Part shown: piece after piece, positions 22,105 through 32,807 of the stretch
Numbering within the stretch: the first letter of the stretch is position 1
How the letters are laid out: every line of letters starts with the position of its first letter
NCBI RefSeq assembly: GCF_030811655.1
Contig: NZ_JAUSRE010000017.1
Location: 1-64,000 of the forward strand
Origin: Pseudarthrobacter enclensis
Lineage (GTDB): Bacteria; Actinomycetota; Actinomycetes; Actinomycetales; Micrococcaceae
Direction: 5' to 3'
DNA length: 64,000 bases
Translations under genes and position numbers: made by a program
Notes under the pieces: model-generated
What the model saw: the letters and a program-made list of their open reading frames with translations, nothing else
Databases searched by the model: none
Told to the model about the DNA's origin: nothing

Positions 22105-22134
22105 TTGACTCCTACAAAACGTTTTGCATATAGT
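22105..22134 (+). promoter_or_regulatory. Promoter of the LacI-family gene and fructan operon
   Basis: TTGACT (22105-22110) and TATAGT (22129-22134) are separated by 18 bp, close to the sigma-70 consensus. The first operator fills positions 22113-22128 of the spacer, so a bound repressor would block RNA polymerase. Confidence 0.78.
22113..22128. promoter_or_regulatory. LacI-family operator 1
   Basis: TACAAAACGTTTTGCA, a near-perfect palindrome centred on the CG typical of LacI-family sites (core CAAAACGTTTTG). Sits between the -35 and -10 boxes. Identical to operator 2, 35 bp downstream. Confidence 0.85.
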
Positions 22135-22147
22135 GATGCACGCAACA

Positions 22148-22163
22148 TACAAAACGTTTTGCA
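22148..22163. promoter_or_regulatory. LacI-family operator 2
   Basis: Exact second copy of TACAAAACGTTTTGCA, just downstream of the expected transcript start and 15 bp before the regulator ATG. Two sites 35 bp apart allow cooperative binding or a block to elongation. Confidence 0.85.
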
Positions 22164-22177
22164 AAGGAACAGCGTCG

Positions 22178-23200
22178 ATGGCGACCAAGGTAAACATCCG
22201 GGACGTGGCAAAAGCCGCGGGCGTCTCAGTAACTACTGTGTCGCATGCCCTCAGTGAGGCGCACAGCTCGCGGGTCAATGCACGGACCGTGGAGCACATC
22301 AAAGCCGTAGCCGGTGACCTCGGCTACGCACCCAACCGGCTGGCCAGCGGCCTCCGCAACCAGCGCTCCCAAATCCTTGGCCTGGTCAGCGATGAGATCA
22401 CCACCACCCCTTTTGCGGGCGCCATGATCCAAGGCGCCCAGGACGCCGCCTCTGAACACGGGCACCTGCTGATGGTGGTCAACTCGGGCCTCGACAACGA
22501 ACTTGAGAGGCAGGAGATCCGCGCACTGCAGCAGCACCAGGTGGACGGTGTCATCTACGCCCGGATGTTCAACCAAGTGGTGTCCGTTCCAGAAGAGCTC
22601 AGGGCAACGCCCACTATCATCCTGGATGCGACGTCGGACAATGCAGGCTTGTCCTCCGTGGTGCCGGATGAGTCCGGCGCCGGCGGGTCCGCCGCCGAAC
22701 TGCTGGTCGCGGCAGGCCACCGCCGAATCGCCATGATCAACAACGAGGACGATATCCCCGCCGCACACGGACGTCTTGGAGGCTTCCGCGCGGCGCTGGC
22801 CCGACACGGACTGGAGCTGCCGGCGGACCGCCTCGCGGTGGAACATCCGAGCACGGCCGGGGGACGCGAAGCTGCGCTGAGGCTCCTGACGGCACCCGAA
22901 CGTCCCACGGCGCTGTTCTGCTTCAACGACCAAATGGCCATGGGCGCATACCAGGCGGCCGGCCACCTTGGGCTGGAAATCCCCGGTGATGTCTCGATTG
23001 TGGGGGTGGACAACCTGGAACTCATTGCCGACGCGCTCTGGCCAGGACTGTCCACCATCGCGCTCCCCCACTACGAGATGGGCCGCTGGGCTGTCCTGAA
23101 ACTCCTCAACGAGCTTGAGGACCCCGCGGCCGCGCGGGTGCACGAAAAGATAGCCTGCCCGCCCGTGGAGCGGTACTCCGTCGCTCCACCCAAGAGCTGA
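22178..23200 (+). CDS. LacI-family transcriptional regulator of the fructan operon
   Basis: 340 residues. The N-terminal helix-turn-helix reads NIRDVAKAAGVSVTTVSHAL, followed by the hinge helix region APNRLASGLRNQRSQ, then a periplasmic-binding-type sensor domain (DGVIYARMF, VGVDNLELIADALWPGLSTI). ATG 22178 follows AAAGGAAC; an ATG at 22124 lies inside the operators and is unlikely. Two identical operators precede it, so it very probably represses itself and the downstream importer and GH32 genes. Effector presumably sucrose, a fructo-oligosaccharide or a product; inferred from neighbours. Confidence 0.92.
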   Translation: MATKVNIRDVAKAAGVSVTTVSHALSEAHSSRVNARTVEHIKAVAGDLGYAPNRLASGLRNQRSQILGLVSDEITTTPFAGAMIQGAQDAASEHGHLLMVVNSGLDNELERQEIRALQQHQVDGVIYARMFNQVVSVPEELRATPTIILDATSDNAGLSSVVPDESGAGGSAAELLVAAGHRRIAMINNEDDIPAAHGRLGGFRAALARHGLELPADRLAVEHPSTAGGREAALRLLTAPERPTALFCFNDQMAMGAYQAAGHLGLEIPGDVSIVGVDNLELIADALWPGLSTIALPHYEMGRWAVLKLLNELEDPAAARVHEKIACPPVERYSVAPPKS

Positions 23201-23248
23201 AGGCAGAAGCGGCCCGATCAGCCGTCAAGCTACCCAGACCCAAAAAGA

Positions 23249-23280
23249 GGGAACGCAGCCGTTGCAGCGGCCGCGTTCCC
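23249..23280 (+). repeat. Intercistronic hairpin before the binding-protein gene
   Basis: GGGAACGC (23249-23256) pairs with GCGTTCCC (23273-23280), with further GC pairing inside. It lies between the LacI gene and the binding-protein start. It could end part of the regulator transcript or protect the 5' end of the binding-protein mRNA. Confidence 0.55.
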
Positions 23281-23328
23281 GGCAGGACCCGAATCAATCC
23301 CCTCTGTCCAAAAAAGAAAGACCGACCC

Positions 23329-24621
23329 ATGAACAAGATGCTCACCAAGGTCCTGGCGACCAGCATAGCTGCCGTCACCCTCACTGCCGCCCTCGCCGGC
23401 TGCGGCAAGGGCAGCGCTTCCTCCCCCGCAGAAGGATCCAACGAAATTGCACTGTGGACCCACAACGCGGGCAACCCGGACGAACTCGCCGCGGTCCAGA
23501 AAATCGTCGACTCCTACAACGCCAGCCAGGACAAGGTGAAGATCAAGGTCCAGGCTTTCCCCCAGGACTCCTACAACGATTCCGTGGTCTCCGCGGCCGC
23601 GGCCGGGAAGCTGCCGTGCATCGTTGACATTGACGGCCCCAACGTCCCCAACTGGGCCTGGGCGGGATATCTGAAGCCCCTCGAACTGGACACAGACCTT
23701 TCCAAGCAGCTCCCCAGCACCGTCGCCAAATGGGATGGAAAGGCCTATGCGGTTGGCTATTACGACGTCGCCCTGGCCATGATGGCCCGGGCCTCGGACT
23801 TGAAGGCTGCCGGGGTCCGTGTTGCCACCATCGAACAGCCCTGGACCAAAGAAGAGTTCCAGGATGCCCTCACCAAACTCAAGGCGCTGGGCAAGTGGGA
23901 TTACCCTCTGGACCTGGGAACTGCCGGGACAGGCGAATGGCTTCCATACGCCTACTCGCCCTTCCTGCAGTCCTTCGGCGGCGACCTGGTGAACAGGGAC
24001 GGCTTCCAGAGCGCCGAGGGCAAGCTGAACGGCGACAAGGCGGTGGAGTGGGCCAACTGGTTCCATGGCCTGGCCGACCAGGGCTTCATGGCAAAGAAGA
24101 GCGGGAAGGACTCCACCCAGGATTTCCTGAACAACAAGAGCGCGATCATCTACACCGGATCATGGGCTGCGGACAAGGCCAAGGCCGCCATCGGGGAGGA
24201 TCTGGTGGTCATGCCACCTGTGGATCTCGGCACGGGCCCCAAGATCGGCGGCGCATCGTGGCAATGGGGCGTTACCAGCGCCTGCGGCAACTCGGAGGCG
24301 GCCATGGACTACCTGTCGTATTCACTGAAACCGGAGAACGTCGCTGCCGTGGCCAAGGCCACCGGCGCCATTCCGGCGACTGAGGAGGCAGCTGCCCAGA
24401 TCCCGGCGTTCGCCCAGGGCGGCGCCGACCGGATCTTCATGGACTTTTCCCGGAAGTATGCGGTCATGCGTCCCGAAACGCCGGCGTATCCCTTCATCGC
24501 CACTGAATTCGGCAAGGCCACCCAGGACATCCTGAACGGCGCCGAGCCCAAGTCCACCCTGGACAAGGCGGTGAAGGCCATCGACGCCAACATCAAGTCC
24601 AACGGCGGCTACAAGAAATAG
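23329..24621 (+). CDS. Carbohydrate ABC transporter substrate-binding lipoprotein
   Basis: 430 residues. Lipoprotein signal MNKMLTKVLATS, hydrophobic stretch, lipobox LAGC with Cys about 25, then a Ser-rich linker. The mature part is a family 1 sugar-binding protein (SuBp/MalE-like): IALWTHNAGNPDELAAVQKI, KLPCIVDIDGPNVPNWAWAG and GASWQWGVTSACGN. Anchored outside the membrane, it would capture fructan-derived oligosaccharides for the two permeases that follow. Hairpins lie on both sides of the gene, an arrangement that often raises binding-protein dose relative to the permeases. Confidence 0.92.
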   Translation: MNKMLTKVLATSIAAVTLTAALAGCGKGSASSPAEGSNEIALWTHNAGNPDELAAVQKIVDSYNASQDKVKIKVQAFPQDSYNDSVVSAAAAGKLPCIVDIDGPNVPNWAWAGYLKPLELDTDLSKQLPSTVAKWDGKAYAVGYYDVALAMMARASDLKAAGVRVATIEQPWTKEEFQDALTKLKALGKWDYPLDLGTAGTGEWLPYAYSPFLQSFGGDLVNRDGFQSAEGKLNGDKAVEWANWFHGLADQGFMAKKSGKDSTQDFLNNKSAIIYTGSWAADKAKAAIGEDLVVMPPVDLGTGPKIGGASWQWGVTSACGNSEAAMDYLSYSLKPENVAAVAKATGAIPATEEAAAQIPAFAQGGADRIFMDFSRKYAVMRPETPAYPFIATEFGKATQDILNGAEPKSTLDKAVKAIDANIKSNGGYKK

Positions 24622-24632
24622 CCGGAGCCGCA

Positions 24633-24663
24633 GAGGCCTGCTGCGTCGCACGCGGCAGGCCTC
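24633..24663 (+). repeat. Intercistronic hairpin after the binding-protein gene
   Basis: GAGGCCTGC (24633-24641) pairs with GCAGGCCTC (24655-24663), with extra GC pairing inside the loop and no T run. Placed 11 bp after the binding-protein stop and 27 bp before the permease start, like the stabilising stem-loop after malE in enteric bacteria. Confidence 0.7.
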
Positions 24664-24689
24664 CCGCGCCCGATCAACGGAAGATTCCC

Positions 24690-25661
24690 ATGGCAACTGT
24701 TCCCCTCCCCACCCGTCCCCGTGTCCCCGACACCTCGAAAGCCGCCCCGCCGCCGTCGTACGCCAAAGGCAACGCACGGCGCCGCCCCGGCTTCCGCCGC
24801 GAGCAATTCAGCGGCTGGGGCATGATCGCCCCGGCAGCAGTGCTGCTGCTGGCTTTCGTCTTCATCCCAGCCATCCTCGGCTTCGGCCTCGCCTTCACGA
24901 ATGCCCGGCTCATCTCACCGCGTCCCATTGAATTTGTGGGAACGGACAACTTCTCCCGGCTCTTTACTGACCCCACCTTCTACCGGGCACTGCTCAACGT
25001 CGCCTATTTCACCGTGGTCATCGTTCCGGTGCAGTCGGGCCTGGCCCTGGTGATGGCACTGCTGATCAACAAGAAATTCCGTGGCGTGAACTTCTTCCGT
25101 ACGGTGTACTTCCTGCCGGTGGTCACCTCCATGGTGGTGGTCTCACTGCTCTGGCTGTTCATGTATCGCAAGGATGGCCTGATCAATGAAATCCTCTCCA
25201 ATGTCAGCTTCGGCCTGATCCACGGCCCGGACTGGCTGGGTGAGCCCAATACCGCGATGCCCGCCATCATCATTCTGTCCATCTGGCAGGCGGCGGGCTT
25301 CCACATGATCATCTGGCTGGCGGGTCTGCAGGGCATTTCGGGCGAGCTGTACGAGGCGTCGCAGCTGGACGGCACCAGCCGCTGGCAGCAGTTCCGGTAC
25401 GTCACCTGGCCCGGGCTCTTCCACACCCGCAGCCTGGTTCTCGTCACCATCACCATCCAGGCCCTGGGCCTGTTCGACCAGATCAGCGTCATGACACAGG
25501 GCGGGCCGATGGATTCCACCACCACCATCGTTTATGAGGCCGTCCGGTCCGGCTACCGGCAGCAGGAGACTTCCTACGCCTCCGCCATCTCGCTGGTGTT
25601 CTTTGTCCTTGTACTGATCGTCTCCGCGGTGCAGCGCCACCTCACCCGGGAGAAAGACTGA
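24690..25661 (+). CDS. Sugar ABC transporter permease (MalF/UgpA type)
   Basis: 323 residues: basic Pro/Arg-rich N-terminal tail, about six membrane segments and the coupling loop LYEASQLDGTSRWQQFRYVT with the EAA-type motif. One of two channel subunits; its partner begins two bases after its stop. No ATPase gene is in the operon, so a shared MsiK-like ATPase elsewhere is expected. Confidence 0.92.
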   Translation: MATVPLPTRPRVPDTSKAAPPPSYAKGNARRRPGFRREQFSGWGMIAPAAVLLLAFVFIPAILGFGLAFTNARLISPRPIEFVGTDNFSRLFTDPTFYRALLNVAYFTVVIVPVQSGLALVMALLINKKFRGVNFFRTVYFLPVVTSMVVVSLLWLFMYRKDGLINEILSNVSFGLIHGPDWLGEPNTAMPAIIILSIWQAAGFHMIIWLAGLQGISGELYEASQLDGTSRWQQFRYVTWPGLFHTRSLVLVTITIQALGLFDQISVMTQGGPMDSTTTIVYEAVRSGYRQQETSYASAISLVFFVLVLIVSAVQRHLTREKD

Positions 25662-25662
25662 C

Positions 25663-26541
25663 ATGAAAAACCAACTGCTCCTCAAGAACGCCGGCACCAT
25701 GCTGGTGCGCGTCCTCTTCGCCGTCGTCGCGGCGTTTCCCATCGTCTTCATGCTGGTGTCCTCGCTGAAGCCGGACCAGCAGATCTTCGGCGACATGTCC
25801 TCGTTTGCGGCGTTCCTGCCGGTAGGGAACATCTCGTTCGATAACTATGCCGCCGTCTTCGACCGCGTCCCGGCCGCCCGCTTCCTGCTCAACTCCGTGG
25901 GTGTCTCCACCGTCACCGTCATCCTGGGGATCTTCGTCAACAGCCTCTGCGCCTTCGCCCTGTCCCGCATGCAGGTCCGCGGCAAAAAAATTGTATTCAC
26001 GGCGATCCTGGCCACCCTGATTGTGCCGTTCCAGACCCTGGCCCTGCCACTGGTGTGGTGGGTCAACCAGCTCCCCTACTTCGAGCTGAACGGCTTCAGC
26101 CTCGAAATCTCAAAGGGCTGGCTGGACACCTACCAGGTGCAGATTGTCCCCTTCATCGCCAATGCCTTCTCCATTTACCTTTACCACCAGTACTTCGAAT
26201 CCATCCCCAAGGAACTGGACGAGGCCGCACGCATCGACGGTGCCGGCTGGTTCAAGATCTACCGCCGGGTGGTTATGCCGCTGGCTGGCCCGGCAACGGC
26301 CACCGTGGCCATCCTGACCTTCCTGCCGGCCTGGAACTCATACCTGTGGCCGCTCATGGTGATCCAGTCCGAGGAGCTGCGGCCCGTGATGATCGGCATC
26401 CAGTACTTCTTCCAGCTGAACGTTTCCTGGGGCGAGGTGATGGCCTACGCTTCGCTCATCACTGTTCCGGTGGTGGTGCTGTTCATCGCCTTCCAGCGTT
26501 CCTTCGTCAACAGCATCGCCTCCAGCGGCGTGAAGGGCTGA
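25663..26541 (+). CDS. Sugar ABC transporter permease (MalG/UgpE type)
   Basis: 292 residues with about six membrane segments. The coupling loop reads ELDEAARIDGAGWFKIYRRV, the canonical EAA motif for contact with the ATPase. Starts two bases after the first permease and ends two bases before the GTG of the GH32 gene, so the operon is continuous. Confidence 0.92.
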   Translation: MKNQLLLKNAGTMLVRVLFAVVAAFPIVFMLVSSLKPDQQIFGDMSSFAAFLPVGNISFDNYAAVFDRVPAARFLLNSVGVSTVTVILGIFVNSLCAFALSRMQVRGKKIVFTAILATLIVPFQTLALPLVWWVNQLPYFELNGFSLEISKGWLDTYQVQIVPFIANAFSIYLYHQYFESIPKELDEAARIDGAGWFKIYRRVVMPLAGPATATVAILTFLPAWNSYLWPLMVIQSEELRPVMIGIQYFFQLNVSWGEVMAYASLITVPVVVLFIAFQRSFVNSIASSGVKG

Positions 26542-26543
26542 GC

Positions 26544-28064
26544 GTGAATTCACTGACGACGGCGGCCGGTGACGCCGCAGTTTCCTGCGCGGAGCAGTTC
26601 CGGCCTGCGTACCACTACACCGCCGAACGGAACTGGCTCAACGATCCCAACGGTCTCGTGTACCTGAACGGCACCTACCACCTCTTCTACCAGCACAACC
26701 CTTTAAGCGCGGACTGGGGCAACATGTCGTGGGGCCACGCAACCTCACCGGACCTGATCCACTGGGAAGAGCAGCCGGTGGCCATACCGTACGACGACGA
26801 CGAAGCCATCTTCTCCGGCTCAGCCGTGTTCGATCAGCACAACTCCAGCGGGCTCGGGACGGCGGCGGATCCGCCGCTGGTGGCGATCTATACCAGCGCG
26901 TACCAAGGAGCATCGCCGCTGGCGGGCCGCCAGGCGCAGTCCCTCGCCTACAGCCTGGACGAAGGCAGGACCTGGACGAAATACCACGGCAATCCCGTCC
27001 TGGACCGCGCGTCCGCGGACTTCCGCGACCCGAAAGTCTTTTGGTACGACGGCGAAGCCGGCAGTTACTGGGTCATGGTCGCCGTCGAGGCGGTGCACCG
27101 CCAAGTCGTGCTCTACAAGTCAGCAGATCTCAAGGCCTGGGAGTTCCTGAGCACTTTTGGCCCCGCCAACGCCACGGGCGGTGTCTGGGAGTGCCCGGAC
27201 CTGTTCGAGCTGCCCGTGGACGGCAATCGGCGGGACAGCCGCTGGGTCCTCATCGTCAACATCAACCCCGGCGGGGTCGCCGGCGGCTCGGCAGGTCAGT
27301 ACTTCCTGGGAACGTTCGACGGCGTGGCGTTCCGGTCCGAAACGACGGTCACCGAGGGCCTCCAGCAGGACGACGGTCGGATGCGTGAGTACAACTGGCT
27401 GGACTGGGGACGGGACTACTACGCCGCAGTGTCCTTCAACAACGTACCTGACGGCCGGCGGATCATGATCGGCTGGATGAACAACTGGGACTACGCCCAC
27501 CAAACGCCCACCGGGAGCTGGCGGAGTGGCATGTCGTTGCCGCGGGAAGTTTCGCTGACCCGTGTGGAGGGGAAGGTGGTGCTCCGGCAGGAGGCCATCG
27601 ACCCTTTTGGCAGCCCGGAAGTGCCGGGCCTTCGGCTCGGCGCACAGGCACTGGAACCAGGGACGATGGAGCTTCCGACATCGGCCTCCGTGGCGCGGAT
27701 CGACGCCGAGTTCGAGCCGGGTGGCGCCAAGAGTGTTGGGCTGATACTTCGCGCCGGGGCCGCTGGGCGCACTATTCTGCGCTACGACGTAACGGAAGGT
27801 ATTCTGCGGCTGGACCGGCGGAACTCGGGGGACGTACGTTTCCATGACGCCTTCCCTTCCGCGGAATCCGTCGCCGTGCCACAGAAGGAAGGCCGCCTGC
27901 GACTGCGGATCTACCTTGACCGCTGTTCCGTAGAGGTGTTCGCCCAGGACGGGCTCGCCACCATGACGGACCTGGTGTTCCCCCCAGCGGCGGCCACGGC
28001 GCTGGCGGTCTTCGTTGAAGGTGACGGTGCGCAGCTCGTGGCGCTCGACGTCGTCGTCCGCTAG
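26544..28064 (+). CDS. Glycoside hydrolase family 32 (intracellular fructosidase/invertase)
   Basis: 506 residues. The three acidic residues of GH32 are present: nucleophile Asp 34 in WLNDPNG, Asp 162 in FRDP and acid/base Glu 216 in WECP. A five-blade propeller (to about 340) is followed by the C-terminal beta-sandwich (LRIYLDRCSVEVFAQDG). There is no signal peptide, so it should act in the cytoplasm on imported sucrose, fructo-oligosaccharides or levan fragments, releasing fructose. GTG 26544 has GAAGGG seven bases upstream and lies two bases after the permease stop; the frame is open much further upstream only as a shadow of the permease. Last gene of the LacI-controlled operon. Confidence 0.92.
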   Translation: MNSLTTAAGDAAVSCAEQFRPAYHYTAERNWLNDPNGLVYLNGTYHLFYQHNPLSADWGNMSWGHATSPDLIHWEEQPVAIPYDDDEAIFSGSAVFDQHNSSGLGTAADPPLVAIYTSAYQGASPLAGRQAQSLAYSLDEGRTWTKYHGNPVLDRASADFRDPKVFWYDGEAGSYWVMVAVEAVHRQVVLYKSADLKAWEFLSTFGPANATGGVWECPDLFELPVDGNRRDSRWVLIVNINPGGVAGGSAGQYFLGTFDGVAFRSETTVTEGLQQDDGRMREYNWLDWGRDYYAAVSFNNVPDGRRIMIGWMNNWDYAHQTPTGSWRSGMSLPREVSLTRVEGKVVLRQEAIDPFGSPEVPGLRLGAQALEPGTMELPTSASVARIDAEFEPGGAKSVGLILRAGAAGRTILRYDVTEGILRLDRRNSGDVRFHDAFPSAESVAVPQKEGRLRLRIYLDRCSVEVFAQDGLATMTDLVFPPAAATALAVFVEGDGAQLVALDVVVR

Positions 28065-29026: not shown

Positions 29027-29085
29027 GGGTCTCCTCTTGCCCGGTGTGGCCCGCGGGGCCACACTAATTGACGGGAGGCTACCCC

Positions 29086-30561
29086 ATGGAACCAGTAACC
29101 ATCAGCGATCTGCCAATGACGCAGGAGGATCTCGTCTCGGTAGCCCACGGCAGGCCGCTGGTGCTTAGCGAGCCGGCCAAGTCACGGATTGCCGCGAGCC
29201 GGGCATTGTTAGATGAGGCTCTAACCAGCGGAGACGCGATCTACGGGCTCAGCACCCGAGTCGGCCACGGCAAGGACACCAGGGTTCCACAAGAAGAGCT
29301 TGAACAGCTGCAGCAGTTCCTGGTTGCGAGCCACGGCGGCGCGGTCGGGCCGCTGCTGGACCGGACAGTGGTCCGGGCCGCGATGGCCGTCCGCGTCTGC
29401 GGCATGGCCCGGGGCGGTTCCGGTGCAAGCCCGGCCGCAGCGGACACGCTGCTGGCCATGTTGAATGCCGGGGTACACCCGGTCTTGCACAGCACAGGGT
29501 CGGTCGGGGCTGCCGACATCAGCCAAATGGCTGGCATTGCGCAGGTGGCTGTGGGGACGGGCACGGCTGAATTCCGAGGCGAGGTTCTCCCAGGCGCGGA
29601 GGCTTTGCAGCGGGCTGGGATCGAGCCTCTCCGGCTTCAAGGCCGGGATGGGCTGGCCTTGATTTCGGCCAACGGCGTCTCGATCGGCCATGGCGCCCTG
29701 GTCTTGGCCAGGGCGGCGAGGACAGCCCTCGCAGCGGACCAGGCCGTCGTCCTGTCCATTGAAGCCACCCATGGGAACCCCTCGGGATTCTCGGCGCCCG
29801 CGGCGGCGGCCAAGCCGTATCCGGGGCAGGTCGCGGCAGCGGGCCATCTGCATGAACTGATGAAAGGCTCCCAACTCCTGGCCCGGGACGGCCCGCGGTC
29901 CGTTCAGGATGCTCTCTCCTTCCGGGTGGTTCCGCAGGTCCACGGGGCCTTCCGGGAGTTTATCGCCGTAGCCCGGCGCGCGGTGGATACCGAACTGAAC
30001 TCCGCAAGCGACAATCCTCTGGTCGACGTCGAATCCGGCTCGGTGCTGAGCAACGGCAACTTCCATCCGATGGTGCTGGCCGTTGCATTCGACGCTCTGC
30101 GCGTCGCCATGGTCCATGTGGGGCAGTTGAGCGAACGCCGCATGAGCCATTTGTGGAATGCTGTGATGGCGGCGGGAGAGCCAGGGCCTCCGCCCGGGAA
30201 CCGTAGGCCGGAGGCGGCCCCGGGGATACAGCTTCGCTACGCCGGGTCAGCCTGTTACACCGAACTCCGGCTCCTGGCAGCACCCGCCACCTTGGACTCG
30301 ACCGTCTTGGATGTCGGTGTCGAGGACCATGCAACAGGTGCCATGCTCAGCGTCCGGACCACCGAGCATGCATTAGGCCTCCTCGAGGATCTACTGGCCA
30401 TCGAGATTCTGCTCGCCGCCGATTTGTCAGCCCTCTCGCCCCCGGGAACGCTCGGTGCAGGGGCCTCAGCACTGCTCAGGCTCACCGCGGAGGCAGCGAC
30501 CGACGCAGGATCGGCCGCGGACGTCCACCGGAATCTTCGCGAACGCTTTCCCGGAAACTAG
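29086..30561 (+). CDS. Aromatic amino acid ammonia-lyase homologue lacking the MIO tripeptide
   Basis: 491 residues of the histidine/phenylalanine ammonia-lyase superfamily. Active-site landmarks are kept: Tyr 53 in AIYGLST, GSVGA at 138-142, the Asn in LISANGVS, QDALSFRVVPQVHG and ELNSASDNPLV. However the cofactor-forming Ala-Ser-Gly is not there: the sequence is Ala142-Ala143-Asp144, one residue shorter than HutH (Ala142-Ser143-Gly144-Asp145). Without the Ser the MIO group cannot form by the known route, so it may lack lyase activity or use another chemistry. ATG 29086 follows GGGAGG with seven bases between; six extra codons are open upstream. No hut genes are nearby. Superfamily call certain, activity open. 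Confidence 0.88.
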   Translation: MEPVTISDLPMTQEDLVSVAHGRPLVLSEPAKSRIAASRALLDEALTSGDAIYGLSTRVGHGKDTRVPQEELEQLQQFLVASHGGAVGPLLDRTVVRAAMAVRVCGMARGGSGASPAAADTLLAMLNAGVHPVLHSTGSVGAADISQMAGIAQVAVGTGTAEFRGEVLPGAEALQRAGIEPLRLQGRDGLALISANGVSIGHGALVLARAARTALAADQAVVLSIEATHGNPSGFSAPAAAAKPYPGQVAAAGHLHELMKGSQLLARDGPRSVQDALSFRVVPQVHGAFREFIAVARRAVDTELNSASDNPLVDVESGSVLSNGNFHPMVLAVAFDALRVAMVHVGQLSERRMSHLWNAVMAAGEPGPPPGNRRPEAAPGIQLRYAGSACYTELRLLAAPATLDSTVLDVGVEDHATGAMLSVRTTEHALGLLEDLLAIEILLAADLSALSPPGTLGAGASALLRLTAEAATDAGSAADVHRNLRERFPGN

Positions 30562-31322: not shown

Positions 31323-32807
31323 TTAGGGGTCGTGTACCGCCGGTCCCGCAGGGAGGATGCGAGGGGGTGGCGACGGACGCTCGACACGGACGGGCAGAGC
31401 GTCGTCCCCCCGAAGAATGGCGCGGAGCAGCCGCCGCTCCTCCCCCCTGAGCGACATAAGCGCGCCGCCGCCCCGCAGCACCAGATCCCCGTTCGGGGTG
31501 GCGTACCGTTTCTGCAGATCTCCCAGCTCCTCGGCTCGCAGCAGCGCGACCGTGCTGGACCCAGCCAAGTCGACCACGCGGACCAGCGATGAGGGTCCCG
31601 TCAGATCACTCGCAACGACGCGCCGCTCGCTCTCGGTGAGGATTGTCTTCTGCGCTGCGCGTGTCACGACCAGGGGACGGGACGGCCCGTCCAGCAGTCC
31701 GGTCAGCACGTCCGCCGCAGCGTTAGGGCGGCCCGTTCCGCGCGCGGCCGCCTGCATCCGCTGCAGGCGGCCCGGCTCCCGCAGCAGCTCGTCGATCTTC
31801 CAGCCGATCGTCGCGGGAGTGTTGCAGCGGACCGCCGCCCCCTGCTCTATCAGGTAGTCGCCATTGCGAACCTCCTGCCCCGGGATGGGGTTCACCAGCA
31901 CCATGGGCAACCCTGCAGCCATGCACTCCGACGCCGACAGCCCGCCCGGCTTGCCCACAAACAGATCGGCGCGGCTGAGCAGCTGCGGCATCTCCGCCGT
32001 CAAGCCGAGCACCCGGTAGCGGTCGCCAGCGGGCGCGACAAGCTGCTCGATACGCTGCCGCAGCGCACTGTTGCGTCCGCACAAGACGGTGGCCGTGAAG
32101 GACGAGCGCATGTGCAGCGTCTGCCGCACGACCGAGACGGCATAGTCGTCGCCAGTCGCGCCCGCCGAGATCAGCAGCATCGGGGGCTCATTCGTATAGC
32201 GCGCAGGCGATACGTTCAGCTGCGCAGCGATAGGAATGCCCGTGACCGCGACGCGGTCCGGTGGCAAACCCAGCGCCATCAGTTCCACCCTCCCCTCCTC
32301 CCTGGCCAGGAAGAGAGCGTGGAACGCGCCCGTAAGCCATAGCCCCTGGAAGTCGTAGTCCGTCGTAACGACGGCGGTCCTCGCGTCAATCACGCCGCGA
32401 AGGAGCAGTGACGCCAGCAGTTGGGCTGGCAGGAAGTGCGTGCACACTATCGCGGTCGGTCGGAATCGCTTGATCGCATCGATCACCGGAAGTGCGTTCA
32501 CCCGTGTCCAGGGGTCTATCGGGCCCCGGCGCCGGAACGGACGGTCGTTGACGTCGTAGCCCCACTCGACCAGCCAGGGCAAGTCCTCGACCAGGACGAA
32601 GTAACCCTTGCCCAGCAGTGTGCGGTAGAGCACACTGCTCACCTGCAGCACGTCCAGCACCTGCACCTCATCGATGTCGGCGCGCGCGGAACAGGCCTGT
32701 TGCAACGCCGCCGCGGCGCTGTTATGCCCCGCTCCTACCCCTGCTGAAAGGATAAGTACGCGCTCCCTCCCGGCGGCGTCGGGGCCTCGTGCCGACGTTC
32801 TGCGCAT
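31323..32807 (-). CDS. MGDG-synthase-like glycosyltransferase (GT28/UgtP type)
   Basis: 494 residues. N-terminal acceptor domain of the PF06925 type: VLILSAGVGAGHNSAAAAL, DVLQVSSVLYRTLLGKGYF, AIVCTHFLPAQLL and VVTTDYDFQGLWL. C-terminal nucleotide-sugar domain: VAVTGIPIA, MLLISAGATGDDY, LFVGKPGGLSASECMAAGLP and NPIPGQEVRNGDYLIEQGAA. The group transfers a sugar from UDP-sugar to diacylglycerol or a related lipid at the membrane face. A C-terminal extension of about 130 residues after 360 is not typical. The gene is flanked by IS110 and IS3 remnants, suggesting arrival by transfer. Start ATG 32807 has only a weak ribosome site. Confidence 0.88.
   Translation of the reverse strand: MRRTSARGPDAAGRERVLILSAGVGAGHNSAAAALQQACSARADIDEVQVLDVLQVSSVLYRTLLGKGYFVLVEDLPWLVEWGYDVNDRPFRRRGPIDPWTRVNALPVIDAIKRFRPTAIVCTHFLPAQLLASLLLRGVIDARTAVVTTDYDFQGLWLTGAFHALFLAREEGRVELMALGLPPDRVAVTGIPIAAQLNVSPARYTNEPPMLLISAGATGDDYAVSVVRQTLHMRSSFTATVLCGRNSALRQRIEQLVAPAGDRYRVLGLTAEMPQLLSRADLFVGKPGGLSASECMAAGLPMVLVNPIPGQEVRNGDYLIEQGAAVRCNTPATIGWKIDELLREPGRLQRMQAAARGTGRPNAAADVLTGLLDGPSRPLVVTRAAQKTILTESERRVVASDLTGPSSLVRVVDLAGSSTVALLRAEELGDLQKRYATPNGDLVLRGGGALMSLRGEERRLLRAILRGDDALPVRVERPSPPPRILPAGPAVHDP

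Follow-up and report, generated by a model that had tools for sequence, protein, structure and literature searches.

The gene of the lyase homologue and its surroundings

The window analysed here, a stretch of 64,000 nucleotides of Pseudarthrobacter enclensis (contig NZ_JAUSRE010000017.1), carries at positions 29086 to 30561 of the forward strand an open reading frame encoding a lyase homologue of 491 aa (P0001), which matches PF00221 (aromatic amino acid lyase) over residues 12-450 with an E-value of 4.5e-123 and 411.8 bits. Its top NCBIfam matches are histidine ammonia-lyase (HAL) models, every one of them far under its cut-off, with 316.8 bits for the hutH equivalog TIGR01225 against a cut-off of 539.15. 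Histidine ammonia-lyases are likewise its best matches among the solved structures of the PDB, in which ergothionase (ergothioneine trimethylamine-lyase; 6s7j) ranks 15th of 39. An AlphaFold2 model built from three sequences had a mean pLDDT of 30.8 and was useless. The ATG at 29086 was preferred as start codon over a TTG located further upstream at 29068 because two relatives (L012 and L013) have a Met at the same place and because a GGGAGG motif ends 7 bases 5' of this ATG. By-eye reading of the upstream sequences of four loci (the window gene, L012, L013 and L014) revealed common leader elements, CTCTTG followed by CCACACT and then by GGAGG (GGGAGG in the window), which lie at 29034 to 29078 of the forward strand and suggest that the lyase gene may have its own transcript.

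Upstream of the lyase, the region 22124-28064 encodes a LacI-type regulator, an ABC-transporter permease and a GH32 enzyme, and resembles an operon for the use of sucrose or fructan, with no apparent relation to the lyase. Downstream, the first gene of some size is found at 31326-32807 on the opposite strand and encodes an MGDG-synthase-like glycosyltransferase. Elsewhere in the same genome, a separate and ordinary HAL with a C-S-G tripeptide (L002) occurs beside the single HutU that was found. Finally, egtA, egtB, egtC and egtD occur in one cluster (contig C23, L104 2614-7089) with scores above the NCBIfam cut-offs, so that this strain can probably make both hercynine and ergothioneine.

Active-site loop and catalytic residues

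Using the numbering of Pseudomonas putida HAL (1gkj), the alignment of P0001 to this enzyme contains exactly one gap, which is located in the active-site loop. Residues 138-144 (29497 to 29517, forward strand as for all features below) read G-S-V-G-A-A-D in place of G-S-V-G-A-S-G-D and are one residue short, with no Ser at HAL position 143. No MIO-forming tripeptide (A/C/T/S-S-G) is found, the corresponding place being occupied by A-A-D with position 143 missing. The loop Ala142-Ala143-Asp144, described as one residue short in an earlier sequence-only reading of this DNA, is therefore borne out by the open frame and the single gap, and MIO can almost certainly not form in this protein.

Several other residues of the HAL active site are kept. 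In the lyase fold, the Arg283 equivalent holds the carboxylate while Tyr53 acts on the beta-carbon. Tyr53 (29242 to 29244), which the sequence-only reading had rightly listed as kept, is present in 27/27 MIO-free and 26/26 MIO rows of the alignment, and His83 (29332 to 29334), which in HAL lies on the side of the substrate ring, is found in 26 of the 27 MIO-free rows. Phe326 (30061 to 30063) and Glu413 (30322 to 30324, within E-D-H) correspond to HAL Phe329 and Glu414, respectively. Within Q274-D-A-L-S-F-R280 (29905 to 29925) the equivalents of Gln277 and Arg283 are kept and that of Tyr280 is replaced by Leu277. The Q-D-x-x-S-x-R-x-x-P-Q segment previously reported as intact is indeed kept as a motif, but with this exchange inside it. 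The "NG loop", also reported as kept, could not be upheld, since Ser194-Ala195-Asn196 (29665 to 29673) stands at the place of HAL Asn195-Gly196, the ungapped alignment putting Ser194 at Asn195, with Asn196-Gly197 lying further on. Met382 of HAL is not conserved and has no equivalent in P0001, in which positions 142 and 330 are Ala and His, His330 being also the state of the MIO rows.

This pattern is shared by the 27 MIO-free rows, all of which have the equivalents of Tyr53, Gln277, Arg283 and Phe329, together with Leu/Ile at 280 and Ser/Ala at 195; Glu414 is found in 26 of them, with one gap. The loss of Asn195 and Tyr280 had been overlooked in the sequence-only reading, as had the ergothionase precedent discussed below. 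According to PMC11432326, the equivalents of Tyr53, His83 (H82), Asn195 and Glu414 are essential in the Geobacillus enzyme GkHAL, so that the loss of Asn195 in P0001 matters, and His83 is linked to the histidine ring of the substrate in HAL.

The short loop in relatives and the MIO-free branch

The idea that the GSVGA-AD loop may mark a conserved clade proved correct, and the contrary outcome, a variant unique to the window sequence, did not hold: the shortened loop is also found in relatives with 51-88% identity that belong to several actinobacterial families. Members of this clade (clade A) were found at 88% identity in 1/59 relatives' genomes, at 59-85% in 5/295 genomes of the family sample besides the genome of the window, at 65% and 49% in 2/394 genomes of the class sample, and at 52-57% in 7/396 genomes of the phylum sample, plus one locus (L058) at 44%, these four samples overlapping each other. 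Searching the class of genome G565 gave matches in 3 of 24, all already seen, and no new members. The loops read in clade A are A-A-D, A-G-D, T-G-D or S-G-D, and His83 is kept throughout the clade except in L090, where it is Asn. Two more distant clades of the same phylum also have a loop that is one residue short, namely clade B (S-S-D or S-A-D; 19 distinct rows) and clade C (Q-A-D; 5 rows).

To summarise these states, an alignment was assembled in which sequences with identical cores of 380 residues or more were represented once, giving 71 rows and 70 after removal of the duplicate of the query. Loops were read only from fetched loci; two pairs that apparently represent the same strains (L012 and a G032 copy, L013 and a G243 copy) were each entered once, and the counts leave out two broken copies (L014 and L015) and one at a contig edge (L100/L102). 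A residue at HAL position 143 is lacking in 40/40 MIO-free rows and in 0/30 rows with the MIO motif. The same 40 rows, which include ergothionase and the window protein, carry Leu or Ile at 280 throughout and never Asn at 195. Ser143 and Asn195 are both found in all 30 MIO rows and Tyr280 in 29 of them; the remaining row, 1gkj, has a Phe that presumably reflects an engineered form.

When a clade-C protein was searched against the PDB, ergothionase ranked first (E-value of 4.2e-74). Its S-S-I-G-E-G-D loop aligns without a gap to the G-S-V-G-Q-A-D of clade C, and with Q-D-P-L-S-F-R and S-C-N it displays the whole signature. In trees of 53 rows, from which near-duplicates had been removed, all MIO-free rows including ergothionase are set apart from the MIO enzymes by a branch with support of 100/99, and still are (96/97) once the signature columns are taken out. 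Adding three plasmid rows and one clade-A row, again without the signature columns and after further removals (44 rows, the MIO label being defined by Asn195 plus Tyr/Phe280), gave 100/100 for the MIO-free side. Clade B is the sister of clade A (100/98, and 100/99 in the 44-row tree) and clade C is apart from both. Owing to its long branch, 6s7j moved from tree to tree and is not placed with certainty. These trees, which are unrooted and so do not give the direction of the MIO change (loss or gain), were built from five PDB chains, one of them that of ergothionase, from sequences of a single phylum and from three plasmid records, with no plant or fungal PAL among them. Overall, the window protein very probably belongs to the same MIO-free branch as ergothionase, an enzyme which lacks MIO according to PMC13405746.

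Gene contexts differ between the clades. In clade A, clustering of neighbourhoods revealed no neighbour gene that recurs beyond near relatives, and contexts therefore provide no pathway evidence for its substrate. Examples that are not repeated elsewhere in the clade are L079, where the lyase is convergent to homoprotocatechuate-type genes, L085/L089, where genes for a glutamate decarboxylase and a ribulose-phosphate epimerase precede it, and L013, where the genes ahead of it encode a regulator, a protein resembling amino-acid permeases and a TPP enzyme. In clade C, hutU occurs within about 4 kb of the lyase in 5/5 loci (running off the contig in L091) and hutI/hutF in two; besides hutF and hutI, the better-covered loci have an RpiR-like regulator (weak matches), an amidase of the hydantoinase/carbamoylase family and an ABC transporter of the betaine/proline type nearby. 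This transporter is of the same type as the histidine transporter HutXWV of Sinorhizobium; as it may carry histidine, it was not relied on as proof of a betaine substrate. Two clade-C loci (L092 and L094) also hold a normal MIO HAL, so that the MIO-free lyase would there represent a second entrance to urocanate or to a related product.

The surroundings of clade B (L016-L023 and L095-L097) are of another kind, with an NtaA/DmoA-type FMN monooxygenase, as delimited by the gene caller, flanking the lyase in 9/11 loci, a CBS/CysK-type PLP enzyme flanking it in 10/11 and an O-succinylhomoserine sulfhydrylase nearby in 8/11, an arrangement that looks like a sulfur-recovery route. A small protein, rhodanese-like by eye, is also encoded in clade B loci.

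Plasmids contain further MIO-free lyases. That of Deinococcus sp. KNUC1210 (NZ_CP092189.1; L106 3465-10515) has the loop T-S-L-G-E-S-D and is located in what is a probable ergothioneine-degradation cluster. The best NCBIfam matches in this cluster are to thiourocanate hydratase (767 bits, under the cut-off of 930), thiohydantoin desulfurase (395, under 440) and ErtE, which with 563 bits is the sole member above its cut-off (520), while an ErtD-like amidohydrolase, under its cut-off, is split over two overlapping ORFs. Two Rhizobium genes annotated as hutH (L107 6992-8497 and L108 5971-7473) are also MIO-free, with A-A-D and A-G-D, respectively, and are probably not histidine ammonia-lyases. 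In L107 the lyase gene adjoins that of a glycine-betaine-type binding protein; a protein of this type is also listed under the match in three further plasmid records, whose lyase homologues may be of either loop type.

Proposed chemistry, alternatives and comparison with known lyases

The electrophile of MIO enzymes is required because NH2 leaves poorly, whereas in ergothionase trimethylamine leaves by itself. Ergothionase as solved in 6s7j/6s7q, which we take to be the Treponema denticola protein, is said in the study of its structure to act by 1,2-elimination with acid/base catalysis. P0001 has the same structural change and retains both the Arg and the Tyr; it is therefore read as a lyase for a pre-activated amine, an activity that we consider fairly probable. 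With no electrophile to activate NH2, its substrate would carry a trimethylammonium as alpha-nitrogen; the Arg283 equivalent would hold the carboxylate, Tyr53 would take the beta-proton and a 1,2-elimination would release trimethylamine in the manner of ergothionase. Less certainly, an imidazole substrate is suggested by the retention of His83; AdmH, presumably a phenylalanine enzyme, has Val at this position. Also less certainly, an ordinary HutU combined with no match over the thiourocanate hydratase cut-off would favour hercynine (N-alpha-trimethyl-histidine) rather than ergothioneine, in which case hercynine would be split into urocanate and trimethylamine, with urocanate joining the Hut pathway. 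Taken as a whole, the reading of the window gene as encoding an active carbon-nitrogen lyase that works without MIO, belongs to the ergothionase-like PF00221 branch and acts on a substrate with a good alpha-nitrogen leaving group, likeliest a histidine betaine such as hercynine, is moderately probable, and hercynine in particular is proposed tentatively. The proximity of clade C to hutU and the cluster around the Deinococcus lyase speak for this reading, the latter being tempered by ErtE alone passing its cut-off.

None of the 32 carriers of clades A, B and C searched has a thiourocanate hydratase match over the cut-off; 31 of them do match that model, at a weaker, HutU-like level. Since HutU is common, the argument that leads from there to urocanate, and hence to hercynine, is weak. 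A strong EgtD match occurs in only 1/17 clade-A carriers, the genome of the window, with one more weak, so that an external substrate is likelier in the others; among 32 related genomes searched, the EgtD family matched strongly in four and weakly in a fifth. The low identity to ergothionase, together with Ala142 and His330, counts against the ergothionase-like reading, as do the lack of recurrent neighbours in clade A and the loss of His83 in the two Rhizobium relatives, and the sequence does not settle the substrate. The case is strong for the loss of MIO and good for membership of the branch, the substrate being only inferred. Among the open PMC matches listed, titles and beginnings of abstracts pointed to no paper on the actinobacterial clade or on a hercynine lyase, and the term "ergothion" is absent from the main text of a review on MIO enzyme evolution (PMC9002059).

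Two alternatives share the proposed mechanism and differ in substrate, so that their odds overlap with those of the reading given above. P0001 might be ergothionase proper, eliminating trimethylamine from ergothioneine (or from an S-methyl or sulfonate form of it) that the strain can probably make itself; it has the same signature as ergothionase and its genome has the egtA to egtD cluster, but the hydratase is lacking over cut-off in all 32 carriers searched, a strong EgtD match is confined among the clade-A carriers to the genome of the window, and the acidic residues found at 142 and 330 in both 6s7j and the Deinococcus lyase, which may define ergothionase, are not found in P0001. This makes such an assignment unlikely. 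The substrate might instead be another activated amine, such as an aromatic betaine or an N-hydroxy or otherwise N-substituted amino acid. The two Rhizobium relatives that lack His83 imply that the branch has substrates beyond the imidazole type, and the differing contexts, including the monooxygenase and the CBS/CysK-type enzyme beside clade B, also suggest several substrates. Nevertheless, the near-invariance of His83 in clade A (L090 apart) and the tie of this residue to the histidine ring in HAL (PMC11432326) make this alternative rather unlikely for the window protein.

That P0001 is a binding or regulatory protein with the lyase fold, maintained by selection while devoid of catalysis, would agree with the loss of two HAL catalytic residues and with a stand-alone gene that has no recurrent neighbours. 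Both losses are, however, common to the active enzyme ergothionase, and the equivalents of Tyr53, Gln277, Arg283, Phe329 and, but for one gap, Glu414 are kept in the MIO-free rows; such a role is very unlikely, and the "binding protein" proposed in the sequence-only reading gained no positive support. A decaying or mis-sequenced HAL copy would account for the patchy distribution and for the two degraded copies of Arthrobacter sp. ISL-85, one with an internal deletion and a frameshift (L014 8001-9258) and the other spanning only the first 115 residues (L015 8001-8339), which indicate that the gene is dispensable in places. In the window the frame is open, and dN/dS values of 0.18, 0.14 and 0.14 for the three pairs among three intact orthologues reveal no relaxed selection and indicate a gene kept by selection. 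These values, the kept Tyr53, Arg283 and other equivalents, the same loop state across a conserved clade and the separate normal HAL with C-S-G beside hutU make decay barely credible, and the "dead enzyme" of the earlier reading is disfavoured for the window gene. Its remaining suggestion, a lyase-fold protein with new chemistry, stands as regards a chemistry other than that of HAL, given the conserved clade and the ergothionase signature. The word "new" was too strong, as the chemistry probably has a published precedent in ergothionase, the new part being the clade and its substrate.

On a broader scale, the MIO-free side of PF00221 could be a large overlooked family, at least partly hidden under the name hutH and acting on several amino-acid derivatives, from which it would remove amines that are already activated (quaternary ammonium, perhaps also other N-substituted groups), with the window's clade as a hercynine trimethylamine-lyase and clade B coupling the elimination to sulfur recovery through its monooxygenase and CBS/CysK-type enzyme; we regard this view as doubtful. 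Such a hercynine trimethylamine-lyase would channel histidine betaine directly into the Hut pathway. If the reading proposed for the window protein is correct, it would offer a direct assay target for the breakdown of histidine betaines in soil bacteria, including the release of trimethylamine. The signature (one residue missing at A-S-G and Leu at 280) would separate MIO-free lyases from true histidine ammonia-lyases, and genes now called hutH could be re-read accordingly. Loss of a self-made cofactor would then go with a change of leaving group and not with decay.

When compared to HutH (P. putida 1gkj and the paralogue L002), the window protein has the same fold, His83, His330 and most of the substrate-side residues, but it lacks A/C-S-G, Asn195, Tyr280 and an equivalent of Met382 and falls under the TIGR01225 cut-off. 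With ergothionase 6s7j it shares, by sequence, the PF00221 fold, a loop that lacks one residue (S-I-G-E-G-D in ergothionase), Leu at 280, Ser at 195, the kept Tyr53, His83, Gln277, Arg283, Phe329 and Glu414, and the absence of MIO. It differs from it by an identity of only 26.5%, several MIO HALs being closer (up to 38.3%), by Ala and His where ergothionase has Glu at both 142 and 330, and by a genome that has no match over the thiourocanate hydratase cut-off. The clade-C and Deinococcus lyases (L091-L094 and L106), 33-42% identical to the window protein, resemble it in loop length, Leu at 280 and Ser at 195, but they occur in clusters for histidine or ergothioneine breakdown whereas the window gene lies outside any such cluster; the Deinococcus enzyme also has Glu and Asp at 142 and 330 in place of Ala and His. 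The Rhizobium proteins (L107 and L108) have the one-residue-short loop and Leu at 280 in common with it, but differ by Arg at His83, by other neighbours and, at 195, by Val in L107 and Asn in L108. P0001 is neither a HAL nor, on the features tested, ergothionase proper, but a member of an uncharacterised clade that probably works in an ergothionase-like manner.
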